Source: Bacteroidota bacterium
GTDB lineage: Bacteria; Bacteroidota; Ignavibacteria; Palsa-1295
Assembly: GCA_021324735.1 (NCBI GenBank)
Contig: JAJPIO010000004.1
Span: 1-64,000, forward strand
Length of the DNA: 64,000 nt
Direction: 5' to 3'
Each line of letters starts with the position of its first letter. Position 1 is the first letter of the stretch. The notes under the pieces were generated by a model that worked only from the letters and a program-made list of their open reading frames with translations, searched no databases and was not told the DNA's origin. Made by a program: the position numbers and the translations under genes. Below are positions 33,792-50,539 of the stretch, in pieces.

Positions 33792-34847
33792 TTATCGGAA
33801 TTCGGCCATCAGACTATCCAGCGCTTTACTTCCCGGGCATAGCGTCTCATACGGGATCTGCGTCAGGGGCTCATCCGTAGTGCCAAGGATTTCGTGCATA
33901 TCGCTCGAGGACTCATCGATAAACAGGATTCCAGTCGGGACTTTTCCCTCCTTCTGATGCTCTTCAAGATATGAGAAGACTTTAGCCCGGTCGCGAGGAT
34001 CGTAGCCCTCCGGTGTACGGGTGAATTTAATCACACTGCCGTCATGCATCGTAACGGAGGTATGGCCGTTCACCTTAATGCTGGCGATCAGCTCGTCCAT
34101 CGGGAAGATGACATTCGTATCCGTTACATGGTACTCATGCTTGCGGGTGTAGAGATAGCTTTTCGTCGAACCTTCGTGATCGTTGAACGTAACACACGGA
34201 GAGATCACGTCGATAAGCGCTAGGCCCTTATGTTTAATACCCGCTTCAATAATGGGGACCAATTGTTCTTTCTCACCAGAGAAACTTCGGGCGACGAACG
34301 TTGCACCAAGGCTTAAAGCGAACATTACTGGATCGATCGGCGAGACACGATTGACATCGCCCTTCTTGCTCTTCGTGCCAATATCCGCCGAGGCCGAGAA
34401 CTGTCCCTTCGTGAGACCATACACACCATTGTTCTCGATGATATAGAGCATATTGAGGTTGCGCCGAATGGCGTGTGCCATTTGCCCAATGCCGATCGAG
34501 AGCGAGTCGCCATCACCGGAAACTCCGATCGCAATAAGTTTGCGATTGGCAGCAGCGGCACCTGTTGCGATCGCAGGCATGCGGCCGTGCGCAGAGTTAA
34601 ACCCGTGGGCACCGCTAACAAAATAGGTAGGCGTCTTGGAAGAGCAGCCGATCCCAGAAAACTTGCCGATCATATGCGGATCGAGCGAGAGCTTCCACGC
34701 CGCCTTAATAATGGCAGCCGTAACGGAGTCATGTCCGCACCCCGCACAGAGTGTAGACATTGCACCCTCATACGCGCGCAGGTTCAAACCGAGCGAGTTC
34801 TTTTCGAGGCTCGGGTGAGTTACAATTGGTTTGGCGATCGATGGCAC
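33792..34847 (-). CDS. korB: 2-oxoacid:ferredoxin oxidoreductase beta subunit (first copy)
   Basis: A 351-residue TPP-binding subunit. LCAGCGHD supplies two cysteines of the [4Fe-4S] cluster and SGIGCSS a third; the ISPCVTFND loop carries the fourth. The TPP/Mg motif is SGDGDSLSIGIGQMAHAIRRNLNM with NNGVYGLTKGQ. It would form a heterodimer with the subunit at 34894-36726 and interconvert a 2-oxoacid plus CoA with acyl-CoA, CO2 and reduced ferredoxin. The most likely substrate is 2-oxoglutarate. It starts 46 bases after the alpha gene and ends just before a terminator. Confidence 0.93.
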   Translation of the reverse strand: MPSIAKPIVTHPSLEKNSLGLNLRAYEGAMSTLCAGCGHDSVTAAIIKAAWKLSLDPHMIGKFSGIGCSSKTPTYFVSGAHGFNSAHGRMPAIATGAAAANRKLIAIGVSGDGDSLSIGIGQMAHAIRRNLNMLYIIENNGVYGLTKGQFSASADIGTKSKKGDVNRVSPIDPVMFALSLGATFVARSFSGEKEQLVPIIEAGIKHKGLALIDVISPCVTFNDHEGSTKSYLYTRKHEYHVTDTNVIFPMDELIASIKVNGHTSVTMHDGSVIKFTRTPEGYDPRDRAKVFSYLEEHQKEGKVPTGILFIDESSSDMHEILGTTDEPLTQIPYETLCPGSKALDSLMAEFR

Positions 34848-34893
34848 AGAGGTCGAAAATTATGAGTGATTTATTCTGCTGTAATTGCGGCGA

Positions 34894-36726
34894 TCATTCC
34901 CCGGTAATGACTCCCGCCTTCATGTCGGGGTGCACCTGACGAGCGAGTTTATGCTGAATACCTTCCACGACGGATTTTGCAGAGAGCGGAAATCCGCCAT
35001 AGATGAGTATCGACTGCAGTTTTCCTTTCAGCGCGCGAGTTTCGAGCGTCAGCAACGATTTAAGCTGGGCATCGCGATTTTGCTCGAGGATATAACAGAA
35101 GTCCTGCTCGTCAATAAAGCGTTCAACTTCGGAAGCGAATGGGAAACTGCGAATGCGCATATAGTTGACCAGTACGCCATCCGACTCCAAAATATCGATG
35201 GCTTCCCGGCATGCTAAGTCGCAGCCACCCAGTGTGATGATCCCAATCGTTGCTCCTTCTTTTCGCTCGATGATCGGAGCGGGCACATACTTCGCGGCGG
35301 CCTTGTGCTTATTCGTAAGCCGGTCCATCACCTCCTGGTATTCCGCCGGAGACTCCGTATAACCACCGAGCCGATTATGACCCGAGCCGCGGGTGAAATA
35401 GCTGCCTTTTGCATTCACGCCAGGCAGCGTTCGAGCGGCAACGAAATTCTCATCTTCCGGTGAGTACCGATAATAGGTCTTGATCTCATCCAACTCTGCG
35501 CTGGTAAGAACGCGTCCCCTATTGGGCCGATAGTTATCGTCCCATTCGAGACGGTCGACGACCCAGTCGTTCATGCCGATGTCGAGATCGGAAAGCATGA
35601 AGACAGGAGTTTGAAATTGCTCCGCCAGGTCAAACGATTTGGCCGCAAAATGGAAACATTCGTTCGGGTTTGAAGGGAAGAGCAAAATATGCTTCGTATC
35701 CCCGTGCGACGCATACGCACATTCCAGGATATCCGATTGCTGCGTGCGCGTCGGCATACCCGTCGAAGGTCCGGTGCGCTGAATATCAAAGATAACGGCG
35801 GGAATTTCCGCGTAGTATGCCAAACCGATCAGCTCGTTCATCAGTGAAATGCCAGGGCCGGCAGTCGATGTAAACGATCGGGCCCCCGCCCAGGATGCGC
35901 CAATCACCATACCGATCGCCGCCAGCTCATCCTCGGCCTGCAAAAAGGCGAAGTTGTTCTTCTTGGTGACGGGATCCACGCGGTACTTATCAGAGAACGC
36001 CTTAAAGGAATCCATCACCGATGTAGCCGGCGTAATAGGATACCAAGCTGCCACTGTTGCACCCGCCCAAATAGCTCCAAGTGCCGTGGCGGTATTACCA
36101 TCGATCAAGATCTTATTGCCGTTCGCATCCATGCCCTCACAATGGAATGGAAGCGGACACGCAAGGTGCTGCTTTGCGTAATCGTAGCCCTGATGAAGTG
36201 CCTTGCGATTGACATCGAGCAATGCTTGCTTTTTGCCATACGCCTCTTTGATCAACTCCTCGATGATCTCCATATCGAGATTGAGCAAGGCCGCCAGAGA
36301 TCCGGTATACATGATGTTCTTAAGCAGTATACGCGTTTTCGGCTCGGGGACGGATTCCGTCAACATCTTTGCGAGTGGTACGCCAAGAAATGTTACATCG
36401 TCGCGGTGCAATTCGGAGGGTAATGGCCATGTCGAATCATATAGCACATACCCGCCGGAGCGAACTTCCGTAATGTCACGAGCGTAGGTCGAGCCGTTCA
36501 TCGCGACCATAAGGTCGTAGTCCAATGCTCGTGCACCATATCCCTGCTTACTCACCCGGATCTCATACCAGGTAGGAAGACCTTGAATGTTGGATGGAAA
36601 GAGATTTTTGCCCGCAACGGGGATGCCCATGCGAAACATCGACTGCATAAGCAGCCCATTAGCGCTTGCAGAGCCCGTCCCATTGACGTTCGCAAGCTTC
36701 AGAGCGAAATCGTTAATACCTGTCAT
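34894..36726 (-). CDS. korA: 2-oxoacid:ferredoxin oxidoreductase alpha subunit with fused gamma domain (first copy)
   Basis: A 610-residue subunit. Residues 1-190 are the gamma domain (GTGSASANGLLMQSMFRMG, and the YDLMVAMNG segment), fused to the alpha pyrimidine-binding domain that begins near GNTATALGAIWAG. The YPITPATSVMD, GPGISLMNELIGLAYYAE and QRTGPSTGMPTRTQQSD motifs are typical. With KorB1 it gives a two-subunit KOR. No ferredoxin subunit is fused, so it uses a free ferredoxin. It lies 212 bases after the terminator of the second KOR operon and is probably transcribed from its own promoter there. Confidence 0.93.
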   Translation of the reverse strand: MTGINDFALKLANVNGTGSASANGLLMQSMFRMGIPVAGKNLFPSNIQGLPTWYEIRVSKQGYGARALDYDLMVAMNGSTYARDITEVRSGGYVLYDSTWPLPSELHRDDVTFLGVPLAKMLTESVPEPKTRILLKNIMYTGSLAALLNLDMEIIEELIKEAYGKKQALLDVNRKALHQGYDYAKQHLACPLPFHCEGMDANGNKILIDGNTATALGAIWAGATVAAWYPITPATSVMDSFKAFSDKYRVDPVTKKNNFAFLQAEDELAAIGMVIGASWAGARSFTSTAGPGISLMNELIGLAYYAEIPAVIFDIQRTGPSTGMPTRTQQSDILECAYASHGDTKHILLFPSNPNECFHFAAKSFDLAEQFQTPVFMLSDLDIGMNDWVVDRLEWDDNYRPNRGRVLTSAELDEIKTYYRYSPEDENFVAARTLPGVNAKGSYFTRGSGHNRLGGYTESPAEYQEVMDRLTNKHKAAAKYVPAPIIERKEGATIGIITLGGCDLACREAIDILESDGVLVNYMRIRSFPFASEVERFIDEQDFCYILEQNRDAQLKSLLTLETRALKGKLQSILIYGGFPLSAKSVVEGIQHKLARQVHPDMKAGVITGE

Positions 36727-36938: not shown

Positions 36939-39143
36939 TTAATTGAACGGCGCAGCCCTTGTAATAAGCTCTTCCAGCCCTGGCTCCTTAGGATTGCGAG
37001 GCTTGCCGGGATGGATAATTGAAACCTGGCAAACTTCTGCCGCTTCTACTAACTGACGGTATGTACCAGCATTTGCATCCGCTATATACGCCTGCTTGTC
37101 AGCATTGTAAGCGAACATCTTGTTATTCAACTGCGTACACTCGTTACAGGTAGCGCAGCGATCGGTTTCAATATACGGATCGTCGCCATGATGCTCCGCC
37201 TGGGCGGCCGGTTGGGACTCCGTTGTTAATTCGGGCGCTGGCGCCTCAGCCGGCTGCGAAACGATCTCTTTGGCTGCTGCTTCTGCAAGTTGTTGTTTTA
37301 TCTGCTCGACCAGTCGCTCTGCATGGGAGTTATGTATACCACCTAACTCTTGCAGATTGCGCCACAGTGCGAGAGATCTCCGGGTCTCGGAGAGGATCTG
37401 TCTGCTTACAATTGCGCGATGCAGTGTTCCCGCACCATCTGCAACCGTTATGCTCGGTACCGTCCCGGTCCATTGCGTCCCACCTTGGAGCACTTCAGGC
37501 ACGGTACGAATAATATTCATTGGATCAGCCGCTGGCAGAATTGCATACTGCTCCTTAAAGCGATTGTCCGTCAAGAGAAAATCGGCTAACGTAAAGGTCA
37601 GCTCTTCGGAGATCATCTCATGATGTTCATTCTCATATTCGAACGTCCGCACCGGCCAGGCTTCTTCTGCTTGTGGATTATCATCCAATCGACACCGACT
37701 CGCCCAATCCAATCCTGCCGTTGGATCGTAGAGGATTGTCGGAAACGCTCGGGATTCTGTCGCCGCTGCTGCAACAAGATATGTTGGAATGGAGCCGGTC
37801 TGACCGCCTGTGCCCGAGTACACACTGATGAATGCCGGAGCATTATTCGCAAGACCACGTACCACATCCTGTCGAAGCCGGAATAACTGCGAAGCACTCG
37901 CTTGAAGCACAAAAACATCTCCCAGCCGCATCGCTGTGTCGAGTACGTGTCGAGAACGCGATGCCAAAGCAATGTGACGTTCAATGCCAAGCGACACCTG
38001 ACCTATCGCTGAGGGCTCAAAGAGGTCATCCGTTTGTAAGACAATCTTAAGCGGCAGACCAGATGACAGCGCATCCACGATCTGCAGCGTCTCGTCCGCA
38101 TCAAGTTCGGACGTGTACTTACACAGCAGATAGTCCGGTAATTGGCTAAGCTGATTCGGTTCAAGAGTGTCGGAGCTGTAATCCCCAAAGATGGCGTCGT
38201 GCGTGGGAATGCCATTTTCACCTTCCCCTTCACGGTAAACTCCTTTTACTTCGAGTTCAGCGATCGCTAAAGCATTGATAAGCTCTTGCGCTTCCTGCTT
38301 GCGTTCTTTCATTGCCTGCAACGCTGCGGAGCATCGGAAGAAAACGAACTGATACGGTTCGATATCCGGACGAATCGGAAAGAACCGTTGTCCTTTCAGT
38401 ACTTCGATCAGATGTTGAACGCGATTGCGGCGATCGTCCGAAATACGAATACCCGGCTTGGCCCTTACCAGCACGCGCGACATCGTTTCGAAATCGAAAC
38501 TATCGGCGAAGGAGGTACCGATGGAAGCTTTTAATCGTTCGGGCGCGCGACCGACTTCTGAATGTGCAAGCTCGGCATCCAGAATACTTTGCAGTTTTAG
38601 GAGCAACCGTTCACACTTAGCACGAAACGCATTCGACTTTGCACGCTGAACCTGGCCCCACACGTGTTGGGCAAGTCGCGACATTAACGAAAAATCTAAG
38701 TCGGCTAATTCGCCACTGACATTAAATAAGGGCCACAGCCGTTTTGCTGAGTCTTTAACGAGTTCATCGCTCACTGCCAAACGACCGATAGCAGCTTGCC
38801 ATAGCACGGAAAAATCGCCATGACGTCCCGGAAGCCCGTTGTTTGTTAGCGACGTTCGTAATTCGCGCTCCAATTCATAAGCATGCCGCGCAATGCGCGT
38901 ACGATCAGGATCGTCACGTAGTATTTCAATGGCGTCATCAACCAACCCGCTGAGCGAAAGTACCGCGCGCTCTGTCCCTCCTATTGTATTGAGAACGAGC
39001 GGGAAGTCATACCGAAGCGATCTCATGTCTCGATAGCGAGCAAAGAGAGCCGGAATGCAATCCTGCCCCACTGGTCGAACGACGGAGCCGTTCACATGAC
39101 CACTCAGATGAAAACTAAGCAGTTCTTGATCTTTCACTTCCAT
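36939..39143 (-). CDS. Large unknown protein with C-terminal [4Fe-4S] ferredoxin domain
   Basis: A 734-residue soluble protein. The last 80 residues are a single-cluster ferredoxin: C663, C666 and C669 (CATCNEC) and a distant C705 (VCQ), with the QAYIADANAGTYRQLV spacing of such domains. The middle, about residues 400-530, resembles the C-terminal TPP-domain region of pyruvate:ferredoxin oxidoreductases (PAFISVYSGTGG, ESRAFPTILYDP, DDNPQAEEAWP), but I do not see the catalytic TPP signature. The N-terminal 400 residues are helical and unrecognised. The gene starts 12 bases after KorB2 and ends the nfnA-nfnB-korA2-korB2 operon, so it is likely an electron-transfer partner of that enzyme. Confidence 0.85.
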   Translation of the reverse strand: MEVKDQELLSFHLSGHVNGSVVRPVGQDCIPALFARYRDMRSLRYDFPLVLNTIGGTERAVLSLSGLVDDAIEILRDDPDRTRIARHAYELERELRTSLTNNGLPGRHGDFSVLWQAAIGRLAVSDELVKDSAKRLWPLFNVSGELADLDFSLMSRLAQHVWGQVQRAKSNAFRAKCERLLLKLQSILDAELAHSEVGRAPERLKASIGTSFADSFDFETMSRVLVRAKPGIRISDDRRNRVQHLIEVLKGQRFFPIRPDIEPYQFVFFRCSAALQAMKERKQEAQELINALAIAELEVKGVYREGEGENGIPTHDAIFGDYSSDTLEPNQLSQLPDYLLCKYTSELDADETLQIVDALSSGLPLKIVLQTDDLFEPSAIGQVSLGIERHIALASRSRHVLDTAMRLGDVFVLQASASQLFRLRQDVVRGLANNAPAFISVYSGTGGQTGSIPTYLVAAAATESRAFPTILYDPTAGLDWASRCRLDDNPQAEEAWPVRTFEYENEHHEMISEELTFTLADFLLTDNRFKEQYAILPAADPMNIIRTVPEVLQGGTQWTGTVPSITVADGAGTLHRAIVSRQILSETRRSLALWRNLQELGGIHNSHAERLVEQIKQQLAEAAAKEIVSQPAEAPAPELTTESQPAAQAEHHGDDPYIETDRCATCNECTQLNNKMFAYNADKQAYIADANAGTYRQLVEAAEVCQVSIIHPGKPRNPKEPGLEELITRAAPFN

Positions 39144-39155
39144 AATTATCCCGCG

Positions 39156-40175
39156 TTATACATGCTGAGGTGTGTGACCATCCGGCCATATGGTGAACTT
39201 ATCGAATTCGCGTTCGAGACCGGTACGAATGAGCGAAGCGGTGCGCAACCGTGAATCGGCACGCGTTTCCTCATAACGTGGCACTTCGTCATTGCGGTAC
39301 AGTATTCCAACCGGGATAGGATCGCTGCCGGACGCAACTTCACGAGCACGATTCAGATCAGATGGATCGTGCTCGATGACGTTCATATATCGTTTCGATA
39401 ATTCGGAATCGATCTGAAGGCCATCCTCATGTTGCAATAGTACTACTCGTTGAGGATCGTGCAGATAATCATCCAGGTGCGTGGGCAACCACTCGGGGCA
39501 TCGCTGAATGATCCGGATAAAGGAAAAGCCGTCGTGATGATACGCAGCCTGAAGTGTCTGATACAGCAGCTTCGGGATCCAATCGACCACCTGTGCTACG
39601 AAGGAGACGTTTGCAACACCGAGCGTAACAGTGAGTGGATTCAACGCATCGAGATACGATCCCTTCGGCGTGGTATTCGTCTTTAGTCCGATCGGTGACG
39701 TCGGTGAGGCTTGCTTCTTCGTAAGACCGTAGATGTTGTTATCATGCAGCATCGCGATCATATTCATATTGTATCGGATCGCATGGATCCAATGTGCCGC
39801 ACCGATACTGCAACAATCGCCATCCCCCATATTAACGAACACTTTCAGGTCGGGCCGTGCCAGCCGGATACCTTCTGCGATGGGAAGTGCCCGACCATGA
39901 AGGCTGTGCACTCCATAGGTGTTCATATAGTGCGGCAATCGGCTCGAACATCCGATACCGGACACAAAGACCGTTTTTTCCGGCGCGAGCGCTTCATCGC
40001 GACATAAGCGCTGCACGGCGGTAAGGATCGCATTATCGCCACAGCCAGTGCACCAGCGCGGTACACCCTTCTGATAATCTTCCAGCTCGTATTGCTGCTC
40101 GTAGATCTGAAGCAGGCAATCATTCGCACTTGGAATATCTACTCCGTTCGCTATCATATCCGTCGTATTCTTCAT
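39156..40175 (-). CDS. korB: 2-oxoacid:ferredoxin oxidoreductase beta subunit (second copy)
   Basis: Start chosen at the ATG at 40175 (339 residues): its ATGA overlaps the KorA2 stop and GGAGG lies seven bases upstream; the open frame runs 20 codons further but into korA2. RWCTGCGDN and SGIGCSSR give three cluster cysteines and IQRCPEW the fourth. The TPP/Mg motif is NMGDGDCCSIGAAHWIHAIRYNMN with DNNIYGLTKKQ. Its C-terminal loop differs clearly from KorB1, so the two complexes probably use different 2-oxoacids (2-oxoglutarate versus pyruvate or a branched acid); which is which cannot be told here. Confidence 0.93.
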   Translation of the reverse strand: MKNTTDMIANGVDIPSANDCLLQIYEQQYELEDYQKGVPRWCTGCGDNAILTAVQRLCRDEALAPEKTVFVSGIGCSSRLPHYMNTYGVHSLHGRALPIAEGIRLARPDLKVFVNMGDGDCCSIGAAHWIHAIRYNMNMIAMLHDNNIYGLTKKQASPTSPIGLKTNTTPKGSYLDALNPLTVTLGVANVSFVAQVVDWIPKLLYQTLQAAYHHDGFSFIRIIQRCPEWLPTHLDDYLHDPQRVVLLQHEDGLQIDSELSKRYMNVIEHDPSDLNRAREVASGSDPIPVGILYRNDEVPRYEETRADSRLRTASLIRTGLEREFDKFTIWPDGHTPQHV

Positions 40176-42085
40176 GAGAGTGCCTCCAATGCTACGCGTC
40201 GTACTGTATTTGGCTTCAGTGGCATACCACGGCATTCGCTAAAGCAATCGACATCGACCAAATAGCGAGACCGAAGCAATGTTGCAAGCGCAGAGTATCT
40301 GCGGTTCGTCTCATCGATGATCTCATCCTGAAGCGAATCACTCCAATTATTTTCGATCGTTATGACCTTCTTAAATCCGTGAAGTATCTCCTTGATACCC
40401 GGCGCCATCGGCTGAAGGAAGGTCAGGTGCATGGAAGATACTTTCTTTCCTTCTTTACGCATTTCTTCCACCGCCTCTTCGATCGCCCCCTTTGTACTGC
40501 CCCAGCCTACAATGAGCAGATCGCCGGTGCGATCGCCAAAGACGGGTGGCGGTTTCAGCGTCTTCTGCAGCGTTGCTAATTTCAGGCTTCGAGCGCGAAT
40601 AGCGCGCTGATTGATCTCGGGATCGTAGGCTACATGACTATTCTCATCATGCGCAAGGCCGGTAAGCGTATGCTGGCCACCAAGCTGACCGGGAATAAAA
40701 CGTCGTGCAAGGCCCGTCTTCGGATCCCAGTCGTAGGGCTTCGCTCCTGTTGGCACAGCGCTTTGATCTATCGGTGGCGCAAGCCATGCTTCATCGAACT
40801 CCGGACGTTTGAATGGCTGCTGGGAGTTTGCGAGGTTGGCATCCGAGAGAATGACTACCACCATATTAAACATCTCCGCGATCTTTCGAGCCGTAATTAC
40901 CGAATAGAAGCAATCCTCGATAGTCCCTGGCGCTATTACTACTTTAGGAGCGTCGCCGTGACTGCCGAAGATCGTCGTCATGAGATCGCCTTGCTCTGTC
41001 TTCGTTGGCTGACCTGTACTAGGACCGCCACGCTGTACATTAACTACGACGAGTGGAATTTCACCCATTACCGCAAGACCGATCGCTTCCTGCTTGAGCG
41101 AATAGCCGGGTCCGGAGGTGATCGTTACCGTGCACTTACCGGCATAGGATGCACCGATGGCGAAACAACATGCCGCTATCTCATCTTCAGCCTGGTGGAC
41201 CACTCCTCCGACCTCTTCGAATGCATCGCTGAGGTAATGAGAGGCAGACGTTGCGGGAGTGATCGGATACATCGCGCAGATCTCCATACCGGAGGCGAGA
41301 ACACCCAAAGCAAGAGCCGTATTGCCGTTCACAACGATTTGCGGCACCGTTGTCTTTTCAGACGGTACTTCGTACTTGAAATCGAGATTCTCTTCGGCCC
41401 ATGCGTAACCGGCCTCGAGCAACGCGATGTTAGACTCGATCACTCTCGCCGATTTTTTACCGAACGTCATAACGACCTGTTCGCGGGCAACTTGTAAGTC
41501 GAGGCTGTAAAGCGCGCACAGCAAGCCAAGCGCGAACATGTTCTTGCCCTTCCGCGGATCGCTCACGATCTTCCGGCATTCCATGTCCATCGGAATCTCG
41601 TGGACTTTGTATCCCGCTGCTCTTAGCTGCTCAACCGCTTCGATGTATGATTGAGAAACACGGCGGTCGTCGCGCCACATCGATTCGAGTAGGATCGTGC
41701 AACCCGGTTTCAACTCGTTCGAACGGACTCTTCCGAGCAACACTTGTTCGTTGAACGCCACCACGAGATCGGTCTCATTACCACCGTTCGTTACACGTTT
41801 TGAGCCGATGCGAATCTTGTTACCGCTTGCACCAGCTACGCTGCGGGCGGGCGGGCGGATCTCGGCCGGAATGATCTCGACCGTCCAAACTCCCAATCCC
41901 ATTCGCGCGACGATAGCACCAAACGATTGACCGCACTTCTGCGCGCCTTCGCCCGAATCGCTGATGATCTCGACGATGTGCTCGTTCAGTTTGGTCACCT
42001 TGCTTTTGGGATGCGCTTTTTGAGCAGCCGCATGACCGTTCGTTCGTTCTGTTTTTGCAATTACAACTTCTTCCATTTCCATCAT
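40172..42085 (-). CDS. korA: 2-oxoacid:ferredoxin oxidoreductase alpha subunit with fused gamma domain (second copy)
   Basis: A 637-residue subunit. The N-terminal gamma domain (GEGAQKCGQSFGAIVARMG; LVVAFNEQVLLGRV) is fused to the alpha domain (GNTALALGVLASG, YPITPATSASHYL, GPGYSLKQEAIGLAVMGE, QRGGPSTGQPTKTEQGD). About 25 extra N-terminal residues, Lys/Ala-rich, precede the gamma domain. The start at 42085 overlaps the NfnB stop as ATGA, so translation is coupled. It shares only family-level similarity with KorA1 and keeps the same domain order. Confidence 0.93.
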   Translation of the reverse strand: MMEMEEVVIAKTERTNGHAAAQKAHPKSKVTKLNEHIVEIISDSGEGAQKCGQSFGAIVARMGLGVWTVEIIPAEIRPPARSVAGASGNKIRIGSKRVTNGGNETDLVVAFNEQVLLGRVRSNELKPGCTILLESMWRDDRRVSQSYIEAVEQLRAAGYKVHEIPMDMECRKIVSDPRKGKNMFALGLLCALYSLDLQVAREQVVMTFGKKSARVIESNIALLEAGYAWAEENLDFKYEVPSEKTTVPQIVVNGNTALALGVLASGMEICAMYPITPATSASHYLSDAFEEVGGVVHQAEDEIAACCFAIGASYAGKCTVTITSGPGYSLKQEAIGLAVMGEIPLVVVNVQRGGPSTGQPTKTEQGDLMTTIFGSHGDAPKVVIAPGTIEDCFYSVITARKIAEMFNMVVVILSDANLANSQQPFKRPEFDEAWLAPPIDQSAVPTGAKPYDWDPKTGLARRFIPGQLGGQHTLTGLAHDENSHVAYDPEINQRAIRARSLKLATLQKTLKPPPVFGDRTGDLLIVGWGSTKGAIEEAVEEMRKEGKKVSSMHLTFLQPMAPGIKEILHGFKKVITIENNWSDSLQDEIIDETNRRYSALATLLRSRYLVDVDCFSECRGMPLKPNTVRRVALEALS

Positions 42086-43590
42086 GCCGCGACCCTCACT
42101 CTCATAAAGTTATGCTCCCGAGCGTCAATGCCAAAGATCGAATGGTCTCGCCGGAGCGGACCAATATCGCGAATACCGAGAAACGCTTTCATACCTTGTG
42201 CAGCCTTTCGACCTGCTCCCATCGCCATGATCACCGTCGCCGCACCGGTCACGATGTCACCGCCGGCAAAAACTCCTGCGATGGACGTCATGAGGGTCTT
42301 ATCGGTCGCGATATAGCCCCACTTATTCAGCTTGAGCTTTGATGTTTGCCCGATGATGGGATTAGCATTGGTGCCTATGGCATAAACAACTTCATCCGTC
42401 TCGATCTCGAACTCGCTACCTGGAATTGTCACTGGCCGACGGCGCCCCGAATCATCCGGTTCGCCGAGTTCCATTCGTATGCAGCGAATTGCTCGGACAT
42501 TGCCTTCGCCATCATCTAAGATCTCGATCGGATTCGTCAGCCAATTAAACTCAATCCCTTCCTGCTCGGCGTGATGCACCTCTTCCGCGCGCGCCGGGCA
42601 TTCTACTTTCGATCGGCGGTAGACACAGGTCACCTTTTCTGCGCCCAAGCGCATACTTACTCGAAGGGCATCCATCGCGGTGTTACCAGCACCTACGACG
42701 ACGACATGCTTACCCAGTGGCAGTGGAGTATCAACGTTCGGAAATTCGCGGGCACGCATCAGGTTACAGCGCGTGAGAAGTTCATTCGCGGAAAGAACGC
42801 CGTTAAGGGAATCGCCGGGGATATTAAGCATTGTTGGATATCCGGCGCCAGTACCGATAAAGACCGCGTCGAATCCCATTTCTTCGATCATCTGCTCGAT
42901 CGTAAAGAGCCGCCCGACGAGCACATTGCACTCGAACCTGACTCCCAGTTCTTTCAGCTTATCGATCTCGGCATCGACCACGGTATTTGGTAAACGGAAT
43001 TCCGGAATACCATAGCGAAGTACTCCACCGGCTTCGTGGAATGCTTCGAAGACCGTGACATCGCATCCCGCCTTTGCCATATCGGCCGCGCACGCCATAC
43101 CCGATGGGCCGGAGCCCACAATACCGATCCTATACCGCCCACCATTACTACTGCGTGACGGTTGGATATATGGCTTATTGATCCAATTATTTTGGATGGC
43201 AAGATCACCGATAAATCGTTCGAGGCGGCCGATAGCCACCGATTCCAGCGTTTCACCTACGGTGCAGACGCCTTCACACTGGTTCTCCTGCGGACATACG
43301 CGGCCACAAACGGCCGGGAGCAGATTCGTCCCGGTGATGACCTCGTATGCACCGCGATAATCGCGCTCGCCGATCTTTTGAATAAAATTTGGAATGTCTA
43401 TCGAGACGGGACAACCTTCGATGCATTTGGGGTCGGGGCAGAACAAGCATCGCTCGGATTCGCGGATCGCTTCTGCTTCCGTATATCCACAGTTAACTTC
43501 TTCAAAGTTATGGGCCCTCGTAAAAGCGTCGAGTTCTGCAACAGGCGTCCGCTCTTGGTGTATCGTACGTACCGTGCGCTTTTTTGCCAT
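42082..43590 (-). CDS. nfnB: NfnB-type NADPH:ferredoxin oxidoreductase large subunit (GltD-like)
   Basis: Start chosen at the ATG at 43590 (502 residues), giving MAKKRTVRTIHQER; 16 further upstream codons are open. Cysteine-rich N-terminal part with ERCLFCPDPKCIEGCP and VCPQENQCEGVC, each cluster-binding, then GltD-type FAD site GIVGSGPSGMACAADMAKAG and NADPH site VVVVGAGNTAMDALRVSMRLGA. With NfnA it forms the electron-bifurcating transhydrogenase that couples ferredoxin, NADH and NADP. The strong coupling to korA2 suggests that ferredoxin reduced by KOR feeds NADPH formation, or the reverse. Confidence 0.9.
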   Translation of the reverse strand: MAKKRTVRTIHQERTPVAELDAFTRAHNFEEVNCGYTEAEAIRESERCLFCPDPKCIEGCPVSIDIPNFIQKIGERDYRGAYEVITGTNLLPAVCGRVCPQENQCEGVCTVGETLESVAIGRLERFIGDLAIQNNWINKPYIQPSRSSNGGRYRIGIVGSGPSGMACAADMAKAGCDVTVFEAFHEAGGVLRYGIPEFRLPNTVVDAEIDKLKELGVRFECNVLVGRLFTIEQMIEEMGFDAVFIGTGAGYPTMLNIPGDSLNGVLSANELLTRCNLMRAREFPNVDTPLPLGKHVVVVGAGNTAMDALRVSMRLGAEKVTCVYRRSKVECPARAEEVHHAEQEGIEFNWLTNPIEILDDGEGNVRAIRCIRMELGEPDDSGRRRPVTIPGSEFEIETDEVVYAIGTNANPIIGQTSKLKLNKWGYIATDKTLMTSIAGVFAGGDIVTGAATVIMAMGAGRKAAQGMKAFLGIRDIGPLRRDHSIFGIDAREHNFMRVRVAA

Positions 43591-43626
43591 CGGCTTACTG
43601 CAAGATTCGAAATAAAAAAGTCCTGT

Positions 43627-43648
43627 ATGCCATCCCAATGGATGGCAT
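43627..43648 (-). repeat. Hairpin between nfnA and nfnB
   Basis: ATGCCATCC (43627-43635), loop CAAT, GGATGGCAT (43640-43648): a perfect 9-bp stem in the 82-base gap. On the minus strand a T-run follows eight bases later (ACAGGACTTTTTT), so it may be a partial terminator or an mRNA processing/stability element that sets the NfnA to NfnB ratio. Confidence 0.5.
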
Positions 43649-43672: not shown

Positions 43673-44596
43673 TTACGCACTGACCGTAGCGTATTCGCTA
43701 CCGACAGCAGCCGTGCTCATGCGACAAGACTCTGACCAGCGTTCCCGGGCGACTCGTTCTTCTTCTTTATAGCGACGCAGGCGGATCATAAGATCATCGA
43801 AATCGACCTCGTGCCCGTCGAAATCGGGGCCGTCGACACAGGCAAACTTGACCTTCTCGCCGACTTTAACACGACAGCCACCGCACATACCGGTGCCATC
43901 TACCATGATCGGGTTAAGACTGACCATCGTCTTAATACCGTAGGGCTTGGTCGCTTGAGCGCTTGCCTTCATCATGACGGGAGGACCGATAGCAATGACT
44001 TCCTCGGTGTCCGGATGACTCTCTAAGGCCTGACGAATACCATCCGTTACAAAGCCCCGGATACCGGCAGATCCATCATCGGTGCAAATAATAAGTTCGT
44101 CGGTGATCGCTCGAAATTTATCTTCCCAAAAGATAAGGTCCTTGGTGCGGTAGCCAAGTATGCCAATTACATAAGCTCCAGCCTCTTTGAGTGCCCGAGC
44201 TTGCGGATACACCGGCGCCACCCCAAGACCACCACCCACGCAAATGACCTTTTTCGCACTCGAAACGTGACTCGGAATACCCATCGGACCCGCCAGACCA
44301 TAGAGATGAGTACCGACCTGACACATTTCCTTCATTTCCAGCGTCGATTTGCCAACGGCCTGGATAACGAGCGTGATCGTGCCTTTTTCACGCTTAAAAT
44401 CAGCGATAGTAAGCGGGATCCGCTCTCCATCGCTGTGCGACATTACAATAACGAATTGTCCTGGCTGTGCAGCACGGGCCATCTGCGGATGATGGACCTC
44501 GAGCATATATGTGACATCAGAATAGTCCTCTCGGCGGAGGATTTCAAATGGTCTATTGCCAGTGAGGACCGGGGCGGAGTTATCTGAAGTAATCAC
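43673..44596 (-). CDS. nfnA: NfnA-type ferredoxin-NADP+ reductase small subunit
   Basis: A 307-residue FAD/NAD(H)-binding protein of the ferredoxin reductase/dihydroorotate dehydrogenase electron transfer family. It has a Rossmann-type NAD site (KKVICVGGGLGVAPVYPQARAL) and a C-terminal [2Fe-2S] site, GMCGGCRVKV and ACVDGPDF. These fit NfnA, which oxidises NADH or reduces NAD while NfnB handles NADPH. First gene of the operon nfnA-nfnB-korA2-korB2-unknown. About 400 bases upstream separate it from divergent ppsA. Confidence 0.9.
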   Translation of the reverse strand: MITSDNSAPVLTGNRPFEILRREDYSDVTYMLEVHHPQMARAAQPGQFVIVMSHSDGERIPLTIADFKREKGTITLVIQAVGKSTLEMKEMCQVGTHLYGLAGPMGIPSHVSSAKKVICVGGGLGVAPVYPQARALKEAGAYVIGILGYRTKDLIFWEDKFRAITDELIICTDDGSAGIRGFVTDGIRQALESHPDTEEVIAIGPPVMMKASAQATKPYGIKTMVSLNPIMVDGTGMCGGCRVKVGEKVKFACVDGPDFDGHEVDFDDLMIRLRRYKEEERVARERWSESCRMSTAAVGSEYATVSA

Positions 44597-44991: not shown

Positions 44992-47502
44992 ATGGAAGCC
45001 GTCGCTCATTCACGTCATAATTCAAAGCCTGCCGTTCAAAACAAATTTGTGCTTCCATTCAAAGAGGTAACCCTCGAAGACGTTGAACGAGTAGGTGGAA
45101 AGAATGCTGCATTGGGAGACATGATCCATTTTTTATCCCCGTATGGGATTGCTATCCCCCAGGGGTTCGCGATCACCACGGACGCTTTCTTCTCATTCCT
45201 CGAAGCGAACGGCTTGCAAAGTAAGATCGGTAATATTTTACAGGCACTTGACAGAGAGACGTATTCAAACTTACACGAGATTGGAGTGGAAATACGCACT
45301 GCTATCTTAAGCTGCACCATACCGAGTGAAATCCGGCGAGAAATTGAGGAAGCATATCAATGGCTTTCTGAGTACGGCGATCAACCGAGCGTTGCGATCC
45401 GGAGCAGTGCAACCGCCGAAGACACCGAGACCGCAAGTTTCGCAGGACAGCACGAAAGCTACTTAAATGTGACCGGTATCGACGACATTATTGCAGCGTG
45501 CATTCGGTGTTTCGCCTCTTTGTATACCGATCGCGCCATTGAATATCGCGAGCACAACAAGATCGATCATATATCTGTGGGGTTTTCGGTTGGCGTTCAA
45601 CAAATGGTCCGGGCCGACAAAGGAGCATCCGGGGTTGCCTTTACGATCGATCCCGACACCGGCTTTGATCGTGCAATGCTGATCACCGGAACATGGGGTT
45701 TAGGTGAAAGCATCGTTCAAGGCATCGTTGTACCGGATGAGTTTATTCTTTTTAAGCCTGCTCTGGAATTGGGTAACCAAGCAGTTATTTCAAAAAAGCT
45801 TGGCTCGAAAGAACAAATGTTGGTCTATTGCGAAGACGGTCACAGTGATGAATCAACCATAAATATTCCCACGCCTCCAGCACTTCGCGATCGATTCGTT
45901 CTTTCAGCAGAAGAGCTTGAAGAGTTAGGTTCGTGGCTTCTCTCGATCGAGCGACATTATGGTCGGCCAATGGACATTGAATGGGCCAAAGATGGAGTCA
46001 CCAATAAAATGTGGATCGTCCAGGCACGACCCGAAACCGTACGATCCCAGGAAACACACCTTTCGATCAGCGAATATAAGTTGGAAGAGCGCGGCGAGCT
46101 GTTAGCTAAAGGCATCAGCGTTGGGAATAAGATCATCAGTGGCCATGCCCGACTTCTCAACTCTCCTGAAGAACAGGCGTCTCTCAAAAAAGGGGATATT
46201 CTCGTCACCGATATTACCAGCCCGGATTGGGATCCTCTTTTAAAGCGCGCCGGTGCGATCGTTACCAATAAAGGAGGCCGGACCAGCCACGCCGCCATTG
46301 TTGCACGCGAATTCGGAACACCGGCCGTTGTGGGTGCTGTAAATGCAACCGCCAGAATTAAAGATGACGAAATGGTAACCGTCGTGTGCACATCCGATGG
46401 CAGCGGCGAAATATATCGCGGTGAACTGAAATTTTCGAGGCAGGATCGAGAGATCGGCAAGATCACGATGCCACAAACAAAACCGATGCTCATTCTGGGC
46501 GATCCTGACCAGGCCTTTCGGCTCTCGTTCTATCCCAATCAGGGTGTTGGGCTTCTTCGGCTCGAATTTATTATTACGAACGCCATTCAAATACATCCGA
46601 TGGCGCTGGTCAATTATCCATATTTAAACGACGAAAGTGCACGCCGTCAGATCGAAGAACTGACACGAGGTTATGCCGATAAAAAAGATTATTTCGTCGA
46701 AAAGCTTTCCGAAGGCGTTGCTCGAATTGCTGCAGCCTTTTATCCGAAGGATGTCATCGTCCGCATGAGCGATTTTAAGACGAACGAATATGCGGGGCTC
46801 ATCGGCGGTGCAGAGTTCGAACCGGACGAAGAGAATCCGATGCTCGGTTTCCGCGGTGCGTCGCGCTATTACGATCCACGCTATCGGCCCGGCTTCGAGC
46901 TGGAATGCAAAGCAATGAAGCGCGTGCGCGACGAAATGGGTCTGACCAACGTAAAGCTCATGATCCCCTTCTGCCGCACCGTTGCGGAAGGCCGCAAGGT
47001 CATTGAGGTAATGGAAACACAAGGGCTTCGCCGATCGCCCAATAAAGACAATGGGCTGGAAATTTACGTTATGGCGGAATTGCCAAGTAATATTATTCTC
47101 GCAAAGCAATTCGCCGAAGTATTTGACGGCTTCTCCATCGGCTCTAATGATCTGACACAACTCACGCTTGGCATCGACCGAGACTCAGCCACCGTCAGCA
47201 GCCACTTCGATGAACGCAATGAAGCGCCGATGACAATGATCTCGATGATGATCGAAAGTGCACGGGCAGCGGGTAGAAAAATCGGGCTATGCGGCCAGGC
47301 ACCGAGCGATCACCCGGACTTTGCAGAATTCCTCGTGAACAAAGGGATCGACTCTATCTCGTTCAATCCCGATGCACTCTTGCAGGGGATCGAAAATATT
47401 TCCAAAGCTGAACGCAAGCATCAGGCAACGAATAGTTTGGTTAACGGCTCGCTTCGAGCGCAACGGAATGGCTCGGCAAGAGTACGTACCAATGCTTCTT
47501 AA
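44992..47502 (+). CDS. ppsA: Phosphoenolpyruvate synthase
   Basis: An 836-residue enzyme of the PEP-utilising family, making PEP, AMP and phosphate from pyruvate and ATP. Domains in order: N-terminal ATP-grasp-like pyruvate phosphate dikinase domain (VERVGGKNAALGDM, RSSATAEDTETASFAGQHESYLNV), the swivelling phosphohistidine domain with the catalytic His in GGRTSHAAIVAREFGTPAVVG, and the C-terminal PEP/pyruvate barrel (SIGSNDLTQLTLGIDRDS, GLCGQAPSDHP). Full length for the family. Divergent from nfnA, next to two KORs; in gluconeogenic or CO2-fixing flow it takes pyruvate to PEP. Confidence 0.95.
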   Translation: MEAVAHSRHNSKPAVQNKFVLPFKEVTLEDVERVGGKNAALGDMIHFLSPYGIAIPQGFAITTDAFFSFLEANGLQSKIGNILQALDRETYSNLHEIGVEIRTAILSCTIPSEIRREIEEAYQWLSEYGDQPSVAIRSSATAEDTETASFAGQHESYLNVTGIDDIIAACIRCFASLYTDRAIEYREHNKIDHISVGFSVGVQQMVRADKGASGVAFTIDPDTGFDRAMLITGTWGLGESIVQGIVVPDEFILFKPALELGNQAVISKKLGSKEQMLVYCEDGHSDESTINIPTPPALRDRFVLSAEELEELGSWLLSIERHYGRPMDIEWAKDGVTNKMWIVQARPETVRSQETHLSISEYKLEERGELLAKGISVGNKIISGHARLLNSPEEQASLKKGDILVTDITSPDWDPLLKRAGAIVTNKGGRTSHAAIVAREFGTPAVVGAVNATARIKDDEMVTVVCTSDGSGEIYRGELKFSRQDREIGKITMPQTKPMLILGDPDQAFRLSFYPNQGVGLLRLEFIITNAIQIHPMALVNYPYLNDESARRQIEELTRGYADKKDYFVEKLSEGVARIAAAFYPKDVIVRMSDFKTNEYAGLIGGAEFEPDEENPMLGFRGASRYYDPRYRPGFELECKAMKRVRDEMGLTNVKLMIPFCRTVAEGRKVIEVMETQGLRRSPNKDNGLEIYVMAELPSNIILAKQFAEVFDGFSIGSNDLTQLTLGIDRDSATVSSHFDERNEAPMTMISMMIESARAAGRKIGLCGQAPSDHPDFAEFLVNKGIDSISFNPDALLQGIENISKAERKHQATNSLVNGSLRAQRNGSARVRTNAS

Positions 47503-48462: not shown

Positions 48463-48755
48463 ATTTGACGTCTCCGATCTAATGATTTTCTGCGACGAGT
48501 TAAGAAAGCGGTAATAATAAAGCCATCCGATTCAAATTCTTTATAAATGACAACCATATCTTTCCCCGCTTCTATTTCTTTGACGGCAAATATCTCGCCT
48601 TCGTTCCCCTCCATAATGCGGTCTGGTGCCTCTATTGTATCAAGAACTTCTAAGCGGCGGCCGGCCAGTTCAGAATGCTCTTCTGTGATATGAGACCACC
48701 GTTCGTCCGTTAGGCGAATTGTCTTACCACTCTTGGAGGTAATAAATTCTAGCAT
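48450..48755 (-). CDS. Small toxin-like protein paired with DUF2283
   Basis: Start taken at the ATG at 48755 (about 101 residues, MLEFITSKSGKTIRL); a longer open frame overlaps the preceding oxidoreductase and is not needed. The ATG shares one base with that gene's stop (TAATG). The sequence (RWSHITEEHSELAG, LDTIEAPDRIMEG, VVIYKEFESDGFIITAFLTRR) resembles small RelE/BrnT-like or polyvalent-nuclease folds, many of which end in a basic cluster such as RRRKSLDRRR. Immediately followed by the DUF2283 gene with overlap. Toxicity is inferred from pairing and composition, not shown. Confidence 0.65.
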   Translation of the reverse strand: MLEFITSKSGKTIRLTDERWSHITEEHSELAGRRLEVLDTIEAPDRIMEGNEGEIFAVKEIEAGKDMVVIYKEFESDGFIITAFLTRRRKSLDRRRQIWPE

Positions 48756-50539
48756 TAAGCCAACGCCAATTCCCTCACATCGATCGCTTTGGGCACCAGC
48801 ACCTCGAACTTCTGCATGTCCCATGCGAAGGTCGGGCAGCGCTCGGCACAGAGGCCGCAGTGAACGCAAATATCTTCATCCTTTACCATAATGCGACCGG
48901 TCTGCTTCAGCGGCTCCGAAGTAAATAGCGGCTCGCTCAAATTTACCGCTGGAGCCGAAAGCCGCGAACGAAGCTCTTTCTCATCGTCCGAATCGCGAGT
49001 GATGGTAAGGCACTGCACAGGGCAGATATCGATGCACGCATCGCACTCGATACACTTGGGAGCCGCGAAATAGGTCTCGACATCGCAGTTCAGGCAGCGC
49101 TGCACTTCATGCGCTGTTTGTTCGGCTGTAAAGCCAAGTTCTACTTCGACCGTCAGGTTCTTGAAGCGCTCGACCAGATCGACATGCTTCATTTTTTGGC
49201 GCTGGGCCGGATCGTAGTTATTGTGGTAACTCCATTCCGAGAGGCCCATCTTCTGGCTTATGAGATTCATGCCGTGCTTGGGTCGCTCGGTAACCGGAAC
49301 GCCGCTCGCATAATTGTGAATGGAGATGGCAGCCTGATGTCCATGCTCTACCGCCCAGATAATATTCTTCGGACCAAATGCAGCATCACCGCCAAAGAAG
49401 ATGCCCGGCTGAGTCGACATGAAGGTCGTTTCGTCAACCTTTGGCATATCCCACTTGCCGAACTCGATCCCGAGATCGCGTTCGATCCACGGGAAAGCAT
49501 TATCCTGACCGATGGCGAGGATCACATCATCGCAAGGAATGATGACCGAATCCACCGTACGCGATTCCGTTGCGCCCTCATTCCATTCGACGCGCTCGAA
49601 TTCCATTCCGACGAGTTTGCCGTCCTCGATCACGAAGCGCTTCGGCGCGTGATTAACGACTATCTCGATCCCCTCTTCTTCGGCGTCCTCCAACTCCCAC
49701 GGTGAAGCCTTGAAATACTGGCGCGGACGGCGGGCCATGACCTTAATATCGGTACCACCAAGCCGGCGTGATGAACGGCAGCAATCCATGGCCGTATTAC
49801 CAACGCCGATGATCAGCACGCGCTCGCCGATCTTATCGATGTGTCCGAATGCGATCGACTGCAGCCAGTCAATGCCGATGTGAATATTCTTTGCGGCTTC
49901 TTCACGACCGGGAATTTTCAGATCTTTACCACGTGGCGCACCCGAGCCAACGAATATTGCATCGTATCCTTCATCGTGAAGAGCACGCAGGCTCTTGATC
50001 GGTGAATTATACTTTACCTCAACGCCCATATTGACGATGTTGCCGATCTCTTCATCGAGCACTTCGGCTGGAAGACGAAATGACGGGATGTTCGAGCGCA
50101 TGAGGCCGCCCGGTTTATCCATCGCTTCGTAGATCGTCACGCTGTACCCGAGCGGCATCAGGTCGTTCGCAACAGTAAGCGATGCCGGACCCGCGCCGAT
50201 ACAAGCGATGCGCTTGCCATTTTTCTGCGGCGGGATCGCTGGAAGACGATCGCTAATATCATCTTTATGATCGGCAGCAACGCGCTTTAAGCGGCAGATC
50301 GCAACCGGTTTGCCATCGACGCGTTCGCGGCGGCAAGCAGGCTCACACGGTCGGTCGCAGGTGCGGCCGAGTACACCGGGAAACACATTCGACTCCCGGT
50401 TAAGCATGTATGCATCAGAAAAGCGGCCCTGGGCGATGAGGCGAATGTATTCCGGCACGTTCGTATGTGCCGGACAGGCCCATTGGCAATCTACTACCCG
50501 GTGAAAATAATTGGGGTCTTGTTGATTAGTCGGCTTCAC
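48755..50539 (-). CDS. GltD-like FAD/NAD(P) oxidoreductase with extra ferredoxin domains
   Basis: A 594-residue flavoprotein. N-terminal cysteines (VVDCQWACPAH; CDRPCEPACRR) belong to the GltD-type Fe-S region; then FAD site IACIGAGPASLTVANDLMPLG and NAD(P) site VLIIGVGNTAMDCCRSSRRLGG. The C-terminal 120 residues hold two [4Fe-4S] motifs, CIECDACIDICP and CVHCGLCAERCP. It looks like an electron-input module that takes electrons from NAD(P)H to ferredoxin-type clusters. In related organisms similar proteins associate with KOR complexes, and two KORs lie 9 kb away. Its stop overlaps the toxin-like gene start. Confidence 0.88.
   Translation of the reverse strand: MKPTNQQDPNYFHRVVDCQWACPAHTNVPEYIRLIAQGRFSDAYMLNRESNVFPGVLGRTCDRPCEPACRRERVDGKPVAICRLKRVAADHKDDISDRLPAIPPQKNGKRIACIGAGPASLTVANDLMPLGYSVTIYEAMDKPGGLMRSNIPSFRLPAEVLDEEIGNIVNMGVEVKYNSPIKSLRALHDEGYDAIFVGSGAPRGKDLKIPGREEAAKNIHIGIDWLQSIAFGHIDKIGERVLIIGVGNTAMDCCRSSRRLGGTDIKVMARRPRQYFKASPWELEDAEEEGIEIVVNHAPKRFVIEDGKLVGMEFERVEWNEGATESRTVDSVIIPCDDVILAIGQDNAFPWIERDLGIEFGKWDMPKVDETTFMSTQPGIFFGGDAAFGPKNIIWAVEHGHQAAISIHNYASGVPVTERPKHGMNLISQKMGLSEWSYHNNYDPAQRQKMKHVDLVERFKNLTVEVELGFTAEQTAHEVQRCLNCDVETYFAAPKCIECDACIDICPVQCLTITRDSDDEKELRSRLSAPAVNLSEPLFTSEPLKQTGRIMVKDEDICVHCGLCAERCPTFAWDMQKFEVLVPKAIDVRELALA

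Follow-up and report, generated by a model that had tools for sequence, protein, structure and literature searches.

Gene X, the last gene of a five-gene operon in the 64,000-nucleotide stretch of Bacteroidota DNA analysed here (the window), encodes a protein of 734 residues that, as judged by profile alignment and a predicted structure, is a full-length collinear homologue of the C-terminal half (domain V, domain VI and tail ferredoxin) of giant single-chain pyruvate:ferredoxin oxidoreductases (PFORs), which are rare proteins of about 1,640-1,720 aa, and is catalytically dead. As judged from gene order, its obligate partner is KorAB, namely the clade of KorAB encoded beside it, and X is probably a hitherto undescribed subunit for electron transfer between KorAB and its redox partners. 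The PFOR fold, the ferredoxin, KorAB and Nfn are known parts; what appears to be new is a gutted PFOR half that serves KorAB as an obligate carrier of a tethered ferredoxin. Two-subunit 2-oxoacid oxidoreductases attract study because they can run decarboxylation in reverse during CO2 fixation, and X would be a dedicated wiring subunit between such an enzyme and the cellular electron carriers, made from a hollowed-out enzyme half and present across several phyla.

The operon of gene X

The gene order is nfnA-nfnB-korA2-korB2-X, with all five genes collinear on the minus strand, and the identities of the operon genes are based on Pfam or NCBIfam and PDB matches. The nfnA gene (43673-44596) encodes the small Nfn subunit with NAD-binding and [2Fe-2S] motifs (DHODB_Fe-S_bind; PDB 5jca_S, E 3e-98, with the cluster motif aligned), and nfnB (42082-43638) encodes the large subunit of NADH-dependent ferredoxin:NADP oxidoreductase (4ylf_B, E 9e-157; 5jca_L, E 1e-142). 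Both proteins align over their full length with the NfnI structures 5jca and 4ylf, and the FAD and Fe-S motifs are present, with the cysteine motifs aligned.

The korA2 gene (40172-42085) encodes the fused gamma-alpha subunit of an (alpha-beta)2 2-oxoacid oxidoreductase (TIGR03710 above cut-off; closest PDB entry 6n2n). Its partner korB2 (39156-40235) encodes the beta subunit (TPP_enzyme_C, E 6.5e-24; closest PDB entries 5b46 and 6n2n), which contains a TPP motif at residue 137 and one proximal [4Fe-4S] site formed by Cys62, Cys65, Cys96 and Cys246, all four of which are invariant among KorB2 homologues. The Pfam domains of the pair are POR, POR_N, PFOR_II and TPP_enzyme_C, arranged in the order III-I-II in alpha. 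Judged from these domains and motifs, KorA2-KorB2 is an enzyme of the (alpha-beta)2 type in which each protomer has TPP and a single cluster site, and it lacks a domain V of its own. StOFOR of Sulfolobus tokodaii (5b46/5b48) and 6n2n match KorA2 and KorB2 in both sequence and domain order; StOFOR, however, comprises alpha and beta subunits, is described as having a free ferredoxin as partner (PMC5020499), and has no X. Domain V is absent from enzymes of this build, and the pocket beside their sole cluster has been modelled with an external ferredoxin (PMC5020499).

X itself (36939..39143, minus strand) is an open reading frame with an ATG start, separated from the end of korB2 at 39156 by 12 bases. 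It is followed by a terminator hairpin (36914-36884, minus strand) with a 13-bp perfect stem, AAGAGCAATGGCG-GTAAA-CGCCATTGCTCTT, and a T-rich tail; the terminator scanner reports equally many terminator-like sites in shuffled sequences, and this hairpin has by far the longest stem among the sites listed. The original prediction of a 734-residue protein that ends the operon, 12 bases after korB2 and ahead of a terminator, agrees with the reading frame, the coordinates and the hairpin.

Relationship of X to giant PFORs

Family databases are blind to X apart from its ferredoxin tail: NCBIfam gives no match, Pfam gives Fer4_13 only, and a direct sequence search of the PDB returns nothing beyond the ferredoxin. 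An orphan or recent gene is ruled out by the full-length homologues in several phyla. The first clue to its origin came from residues 389-499, which weakly match the C-terminal parts of PFORs. A giant single-chain PFOR of 1637 aa is encoded in another Bacteroidota genome, G154 (L102:3436-8349), directly upstream of a putative Rnf operon that is followed by KorA, KorB and a 734-aa X. The giant contains domains I, II and III, the Fe-S motifs of domain V and a domain VI with TPP, and it ends in a Fer4_13 ferredoxin. Giants of the same build are encoded in at least six more genomes; the six compared here, of 1662-1724 aa, all come from X-carrying genomes. Global hhalign alignment of an X profile (65 sequences) with the C-terminal half of the giants gives a probability of 100 and an E-value of 1.8e-74 over 653 columns.

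X was also matched to the giant PFOR piecewise, with reversed profiles as controls (scores of at most 5%), and all pieces match the corresponding pieces of the giant in the same order. Residues 1-148 (38700..39143, minus strand) are a putative remnant of domain V, the intramolecular ferredoxin domain, without its CxxCxxC clusters; the match of residues 10-140 to the giant domain V is the weakest of the series (probability 71, E 4e-5), with no match from the reversed control. The helical segment at residues 149-265 (38349..38699, minus strand) lies within a stretch, residues 150-330, that matches the helical insertions of the giant (probability 95, E 3e-8). Residues 266-560 (37464..38348, minus strand) have a domain VI-like fold that lacks the TPP motif and the proximal-cluster cysteines, and residues 270-560 match the giant domain VI with a probability of 99.8 (E 3e-30). 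Residues 560-650 and the tail ferredoxin match with probabilities of 95 and 97, respectively. Thus, domain V, the insertions, domain VI, the linker and the tail ferredoxin align along the entire X, whereas domains I-III are missing from X, as are the TPP motif and the cysteines of domain V and of the proximal cluster, and X is a separate gene in the KorAB operon. The original prediction had described about 400 unknown helical residues, which the piecewise alignment instead assigns to an eroded domain V and the helical insertions; the segment that it had likened to a C-terminal PFOR domain without a TPP motif is confirmed in both respects.

An AlphaFold (AF2) model of X alone, as had been called for with the original prediction, was built with 64 homologues and has a pLDDT of 89 and a pTM of 0.78. 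All 18 of the 18 PDB matches that Foldseek returns for it at E<=0.001 are PFOR chains. The whole-chain TM-scores are low, at about 0.2, as one may expect of a multidomain fragment that has been remodelled.

The loss of catalytic motifs is evident at the TPP site, where the giants have GGDGATYDIGF...NTGAYSNTGGQ and X has KYTSELDADET...QTDDLFEPS. The motif GDG-x(20-32)-N is absent at the aligned place in all X members; a few members contain GDG strings, but these lie about 40 residues away from that place and are ruled out as real TPP motifs. The ligands of the two [4Fe-4S] clusters of domain V and of the proximal cluster are not found in X. Outside the tail, only Cys149, Cys271, Cys341 and Cys590 are conserved in more than 50% of the sequences, none within a cluster motif, and residues 1-148 have no cysteine column above that level.

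The tail (residues 656-734; 36942..37178, minus strand) is a predicted single [4Fe-4S] ferredoxin domain, with Pfam Fer4_13 at residues 659-711 (E 2e-5, above the gathering cut-off), as originally predicted. Its four cysteines, Cys663, Cys666, Cys669 and Cys705 (CxxCxxC and a remote Cys), are invariant in 67 homologues down to 24% overall identity; a lack of conservation of these residues, which would have spoken against the original prediction, is therefore not seen. Mean identity to the X of the window is 74% in the ferredoxin, 38-43% in the body and 19% in the linker that joins them. This linker (residues 611-654; 37182..37313, minus strand) is Ala/Pro-rich and predicted to be flexible, with a pLDDT below 50 at residues 634-648; across the family, linkers are 43-98 aa long with an A+P fraction of 0.40, versus 0.17 in the rest of X. 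In a single genome, a gammaproteobacterial X of 972 aa (L144:8152-11070) carries, within one reading frame, three tandem ferredoxins borne by long Ala-Pro linkers. At the DNA level, the three copies share 95%, 80% and 78% identity, values that speak against a simple assembly duplication.

Additionally, some X homologues of Acidobacteriota are 1285-1350 aa long and carry an N-terminal extension of about 500 residues (L180:2731-6771, L176, L177, L181 and L182); the one in L180 has no Pfam match beyond the ferredoxin.

Distribution and genomic company of X

A scan of 84,980 species genomes yielded 80 X loci that were kept, from Betaproteobacteria, Acidobacteriota, Alpha- and Gammaproteobacteria, Actinomycetota, Myxococcota and Bacteroidota. 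X-bearing cultured strains include Ramlibacter lithotrophicus RBP-1, Propionivibrio soli SG131, Photobacterium lipolyticum DSM 16190 and Actinotalea sp. M2MS4P-6, and the presence of the five-gene module in cultured strains makes it directly testable. Wherever the contig reaches, the genes upstream of X are korB (74/74), korA (67/67), nfnB (64/64) and nfnA (61/61). Within this reach, homologues of X in this set always follow korAB, and none occurs far from kor and nfn genes, an arrangement that would have contradicted the original prediction. No further neighbour family occurs in more than four of the 53 long loci, so the unit consists of exactly five genes. Median identities across loci are 70-74% for KorA2, KorB2, NfnA and NfnB and 41% for whole X. 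The genome of the window is of the Bacteroidota group, with Candidatus Kapaibacterium as its closest named relatives. In the X tree, a fully supported node places the Kapabacteria group next to Acidobacteriota (Blastocatellia), suggesting that the gene has been transferred between phyla.

The reverse survey, starting from KorB2, shows that all 29 of 29 KorB2-like genes at an identity of at least 49% are followed by X, with one contig holding only the first 195 residues of X. The samples are from Gammaproteobacteria (8), Acidobacteriota (13), the class of G339 within Alphaproteobacteria (5) and Bacteroidota (3), with seed genomes counted. X is not seen beside three more distant KorAB pairs (45-49% local identity). 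NfnAB is not seen beside KorAB-X in six Gammaproteobacteria and in most Acidobacteriota cases at 50-55%. In five of these six Gammaproteobacteria the genes before korA look alike, and in the one locus tested with Pfam (L146:1281-4801), the genes directly upstream of korA-korB-X encode FrdB-like, FrdA-like (FAD_binding_2) and NuoF-like proteins, which are a possible alternative electron module for KorAB-X. In KorAB-X loci without adjacent NfnAB, an RnfB-like and a PFOR-like gene are usually found after X. X thus stays with KorAB where Nfn is replaced by other redox genes, which indicates that X belongs to KorAB and that the acceptor module can change. The original prediction of a partner common to KOR and Nfn is thereby refined: KorAB is the obligate partner, and Nfn gives way in other lineages to FrdAB-like/NuoF-like or RnfB-like genes.

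One gene of the PFOR-like kind, which follows korB-X-rnfB (L179:1021-4581), encodes 1186 aa with weak matches to domains I and II, two Fe-S motifs and no TPP_enzyme_C or POR match, and is possibly another degenerate PFOR.

Replacement of a missing 2-oxoglutarate dehydrogenase is ruled out as the general reason for KorAB-X, since the E1 of that enzyme is encoded in 23 of 27 genomes checked, including the genome of the window.

Proposed role of X and alternative explanations

In all genomes examined, X is found together with one type of 2-oxoacid-oxidising enzyme, and on this ground it is probably an electron-carrying subunit. The original prediction of a new electron-transfer or scaffold subunit that ties KOR to NfnAB is supported by the synteny and the invariant cysteines; physical binding and electron transfer are inferred. 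We consider it fairly likely that X is a catalytically dead scaffold docked on KorAB, whose tethered ferredoxin carries electrons between the cluster of KorB and Nfn. According to this mechanism, the PFOR-like body would dock on KorAB, and the ferredoxin would enter the pocket beside the only cluster of KorB, pick up electrons singly and deliver them to the Fe-S clusters of NfnB. From the known chemistry of Nfn, NfnAB would add electrons from NADH to form NADPH, for a net reaction of 2-oxoacid + CoA + NADH + 2 NADP+ = acyl-CoA + CO2 + NAD+ + 2 NADPH, and the reverse direction would be an NADPH-driven reductive carboxylation. In lineages without linked Nfn, the gene order suggests that KorAB-X would serve another redox module. 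A more far-reaching proposal, which we advance tentatively and hold to be possible rather than probable, is that KorAB, X and NfnAB form one complex in which the swinging tethered ferredoxin couples the 2-oxoacid oxidoreductase directly to the bifurcating transhydrogenase, so that NADPH-driven reductive carboxylation, or the formation of NADPH, would need no free ferredoxin, also in organisms not known as strict anaerobes. KorAB could instead be served by free ferredoxins encoded elsewhere.

The homology to PFOR and the invariant cysteines would equally be expected if X were a rigid replacement for domain V, with its ferredoxin held at all times in the KorAB pocket to provide an immobile second cluster; the enzyme would then react with soluble ferredoxins or Nfn without any swinging. 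The absence of domain V from KorAB and the ferredoxin pocket of enzymes of that build (PMC5020499) also fit such an arrangement. The linker, however, is long, variable in length, poorly conserved and modelled with low confidence, and three tandem ferredoxins are hard to fit into one pocket, which makes a rigid X improbable. The loss of all catalytic motifs and the fast evolution of the body can also be read to mean that X is mainly a scaffold or assembly factor for KorAB (and Nfn), with a structural or sensing cluster and with electrons passing via free ferredoxin. We regard this as quite improbable, as no part of X is better conserved than the ferredoxin, and the tandem duplication of the latter suggests a carrier over a structural role.

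A second, divergent active subunit, with 2-oxoacid chemistry of its own or with a novel cofactor occupying the former TPP cleft, would account for the domain VI fold being kept at high model confidence and for the several invariant residues in the body across 67 homologues. Such activity is hardly credible, given that the TPP motif and the internal cluster ligands are absent in all members, that the body falls to about 40% identity and that X lacks the partner domains I and II.

The tethered carrier proposed for X suggests that a ferredoxin can act as a swinging arm. In the lipoyl swinging arm of pyruvate dehydrogenase E2, a small carrier domain, sometimes in tandem, is borne on Ala/Pro-rich linkers. 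X is alike in having a small carrier on such linkers, but it carries a [4Fe-4S] ferredoxin where E2 has a lipoyl domain, and there is no sequence relation between the two. Searches of the open literature revealed no account of X or of the five genes as a unit, and the text matched by keyword in an Nfn review and in a bifurcation survey contains no KorAB-X linkage. The passages of a paper on the rTCA cycle of a tubeworm symbiont that deal with kor genes describe korABCD and a korAB, and X is not found in them (PMC6315080). AadN of R. palustris is ruled out as an X system, as it is a fused Nfn (PMC9973337).

Three further regions of the window may be mentioned. An 836-aa protein (44992-47502), a look-alike of PEP synthase or pyruvate phosphate dikinase, is encoded divergently from nfnA and has no match in the other loci. 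In the genus of the window, a second pair, korA1 and korB1 (33792-36726), which is of a divergent KorAB type, comes after X on the same strand; elsewhere it is seldom near X. As the pair adjoins X only in this genus and lies near it in few other loci, X is ruled out as its partner. Close relatives of a GltD-like flavoprotein encoded at 48755-50539, with N- and C-terminal Fe-S domains, adjoin korA1B1 in two other loci (L026 and L048), which suggests that korA1B1 and the GltD-like gene encode an NADP-linked enzyme of the KorABC type. The 2-oxoglutarate:NADP+ oxidoreductase KorABC of Azoarcus evansii reportedly combines a KorAB pair with a pyridine-nucleotide module, its third subunit not being X-like, and its closer counterpart in the window may be korA1B1 together with the GltD-like gene.
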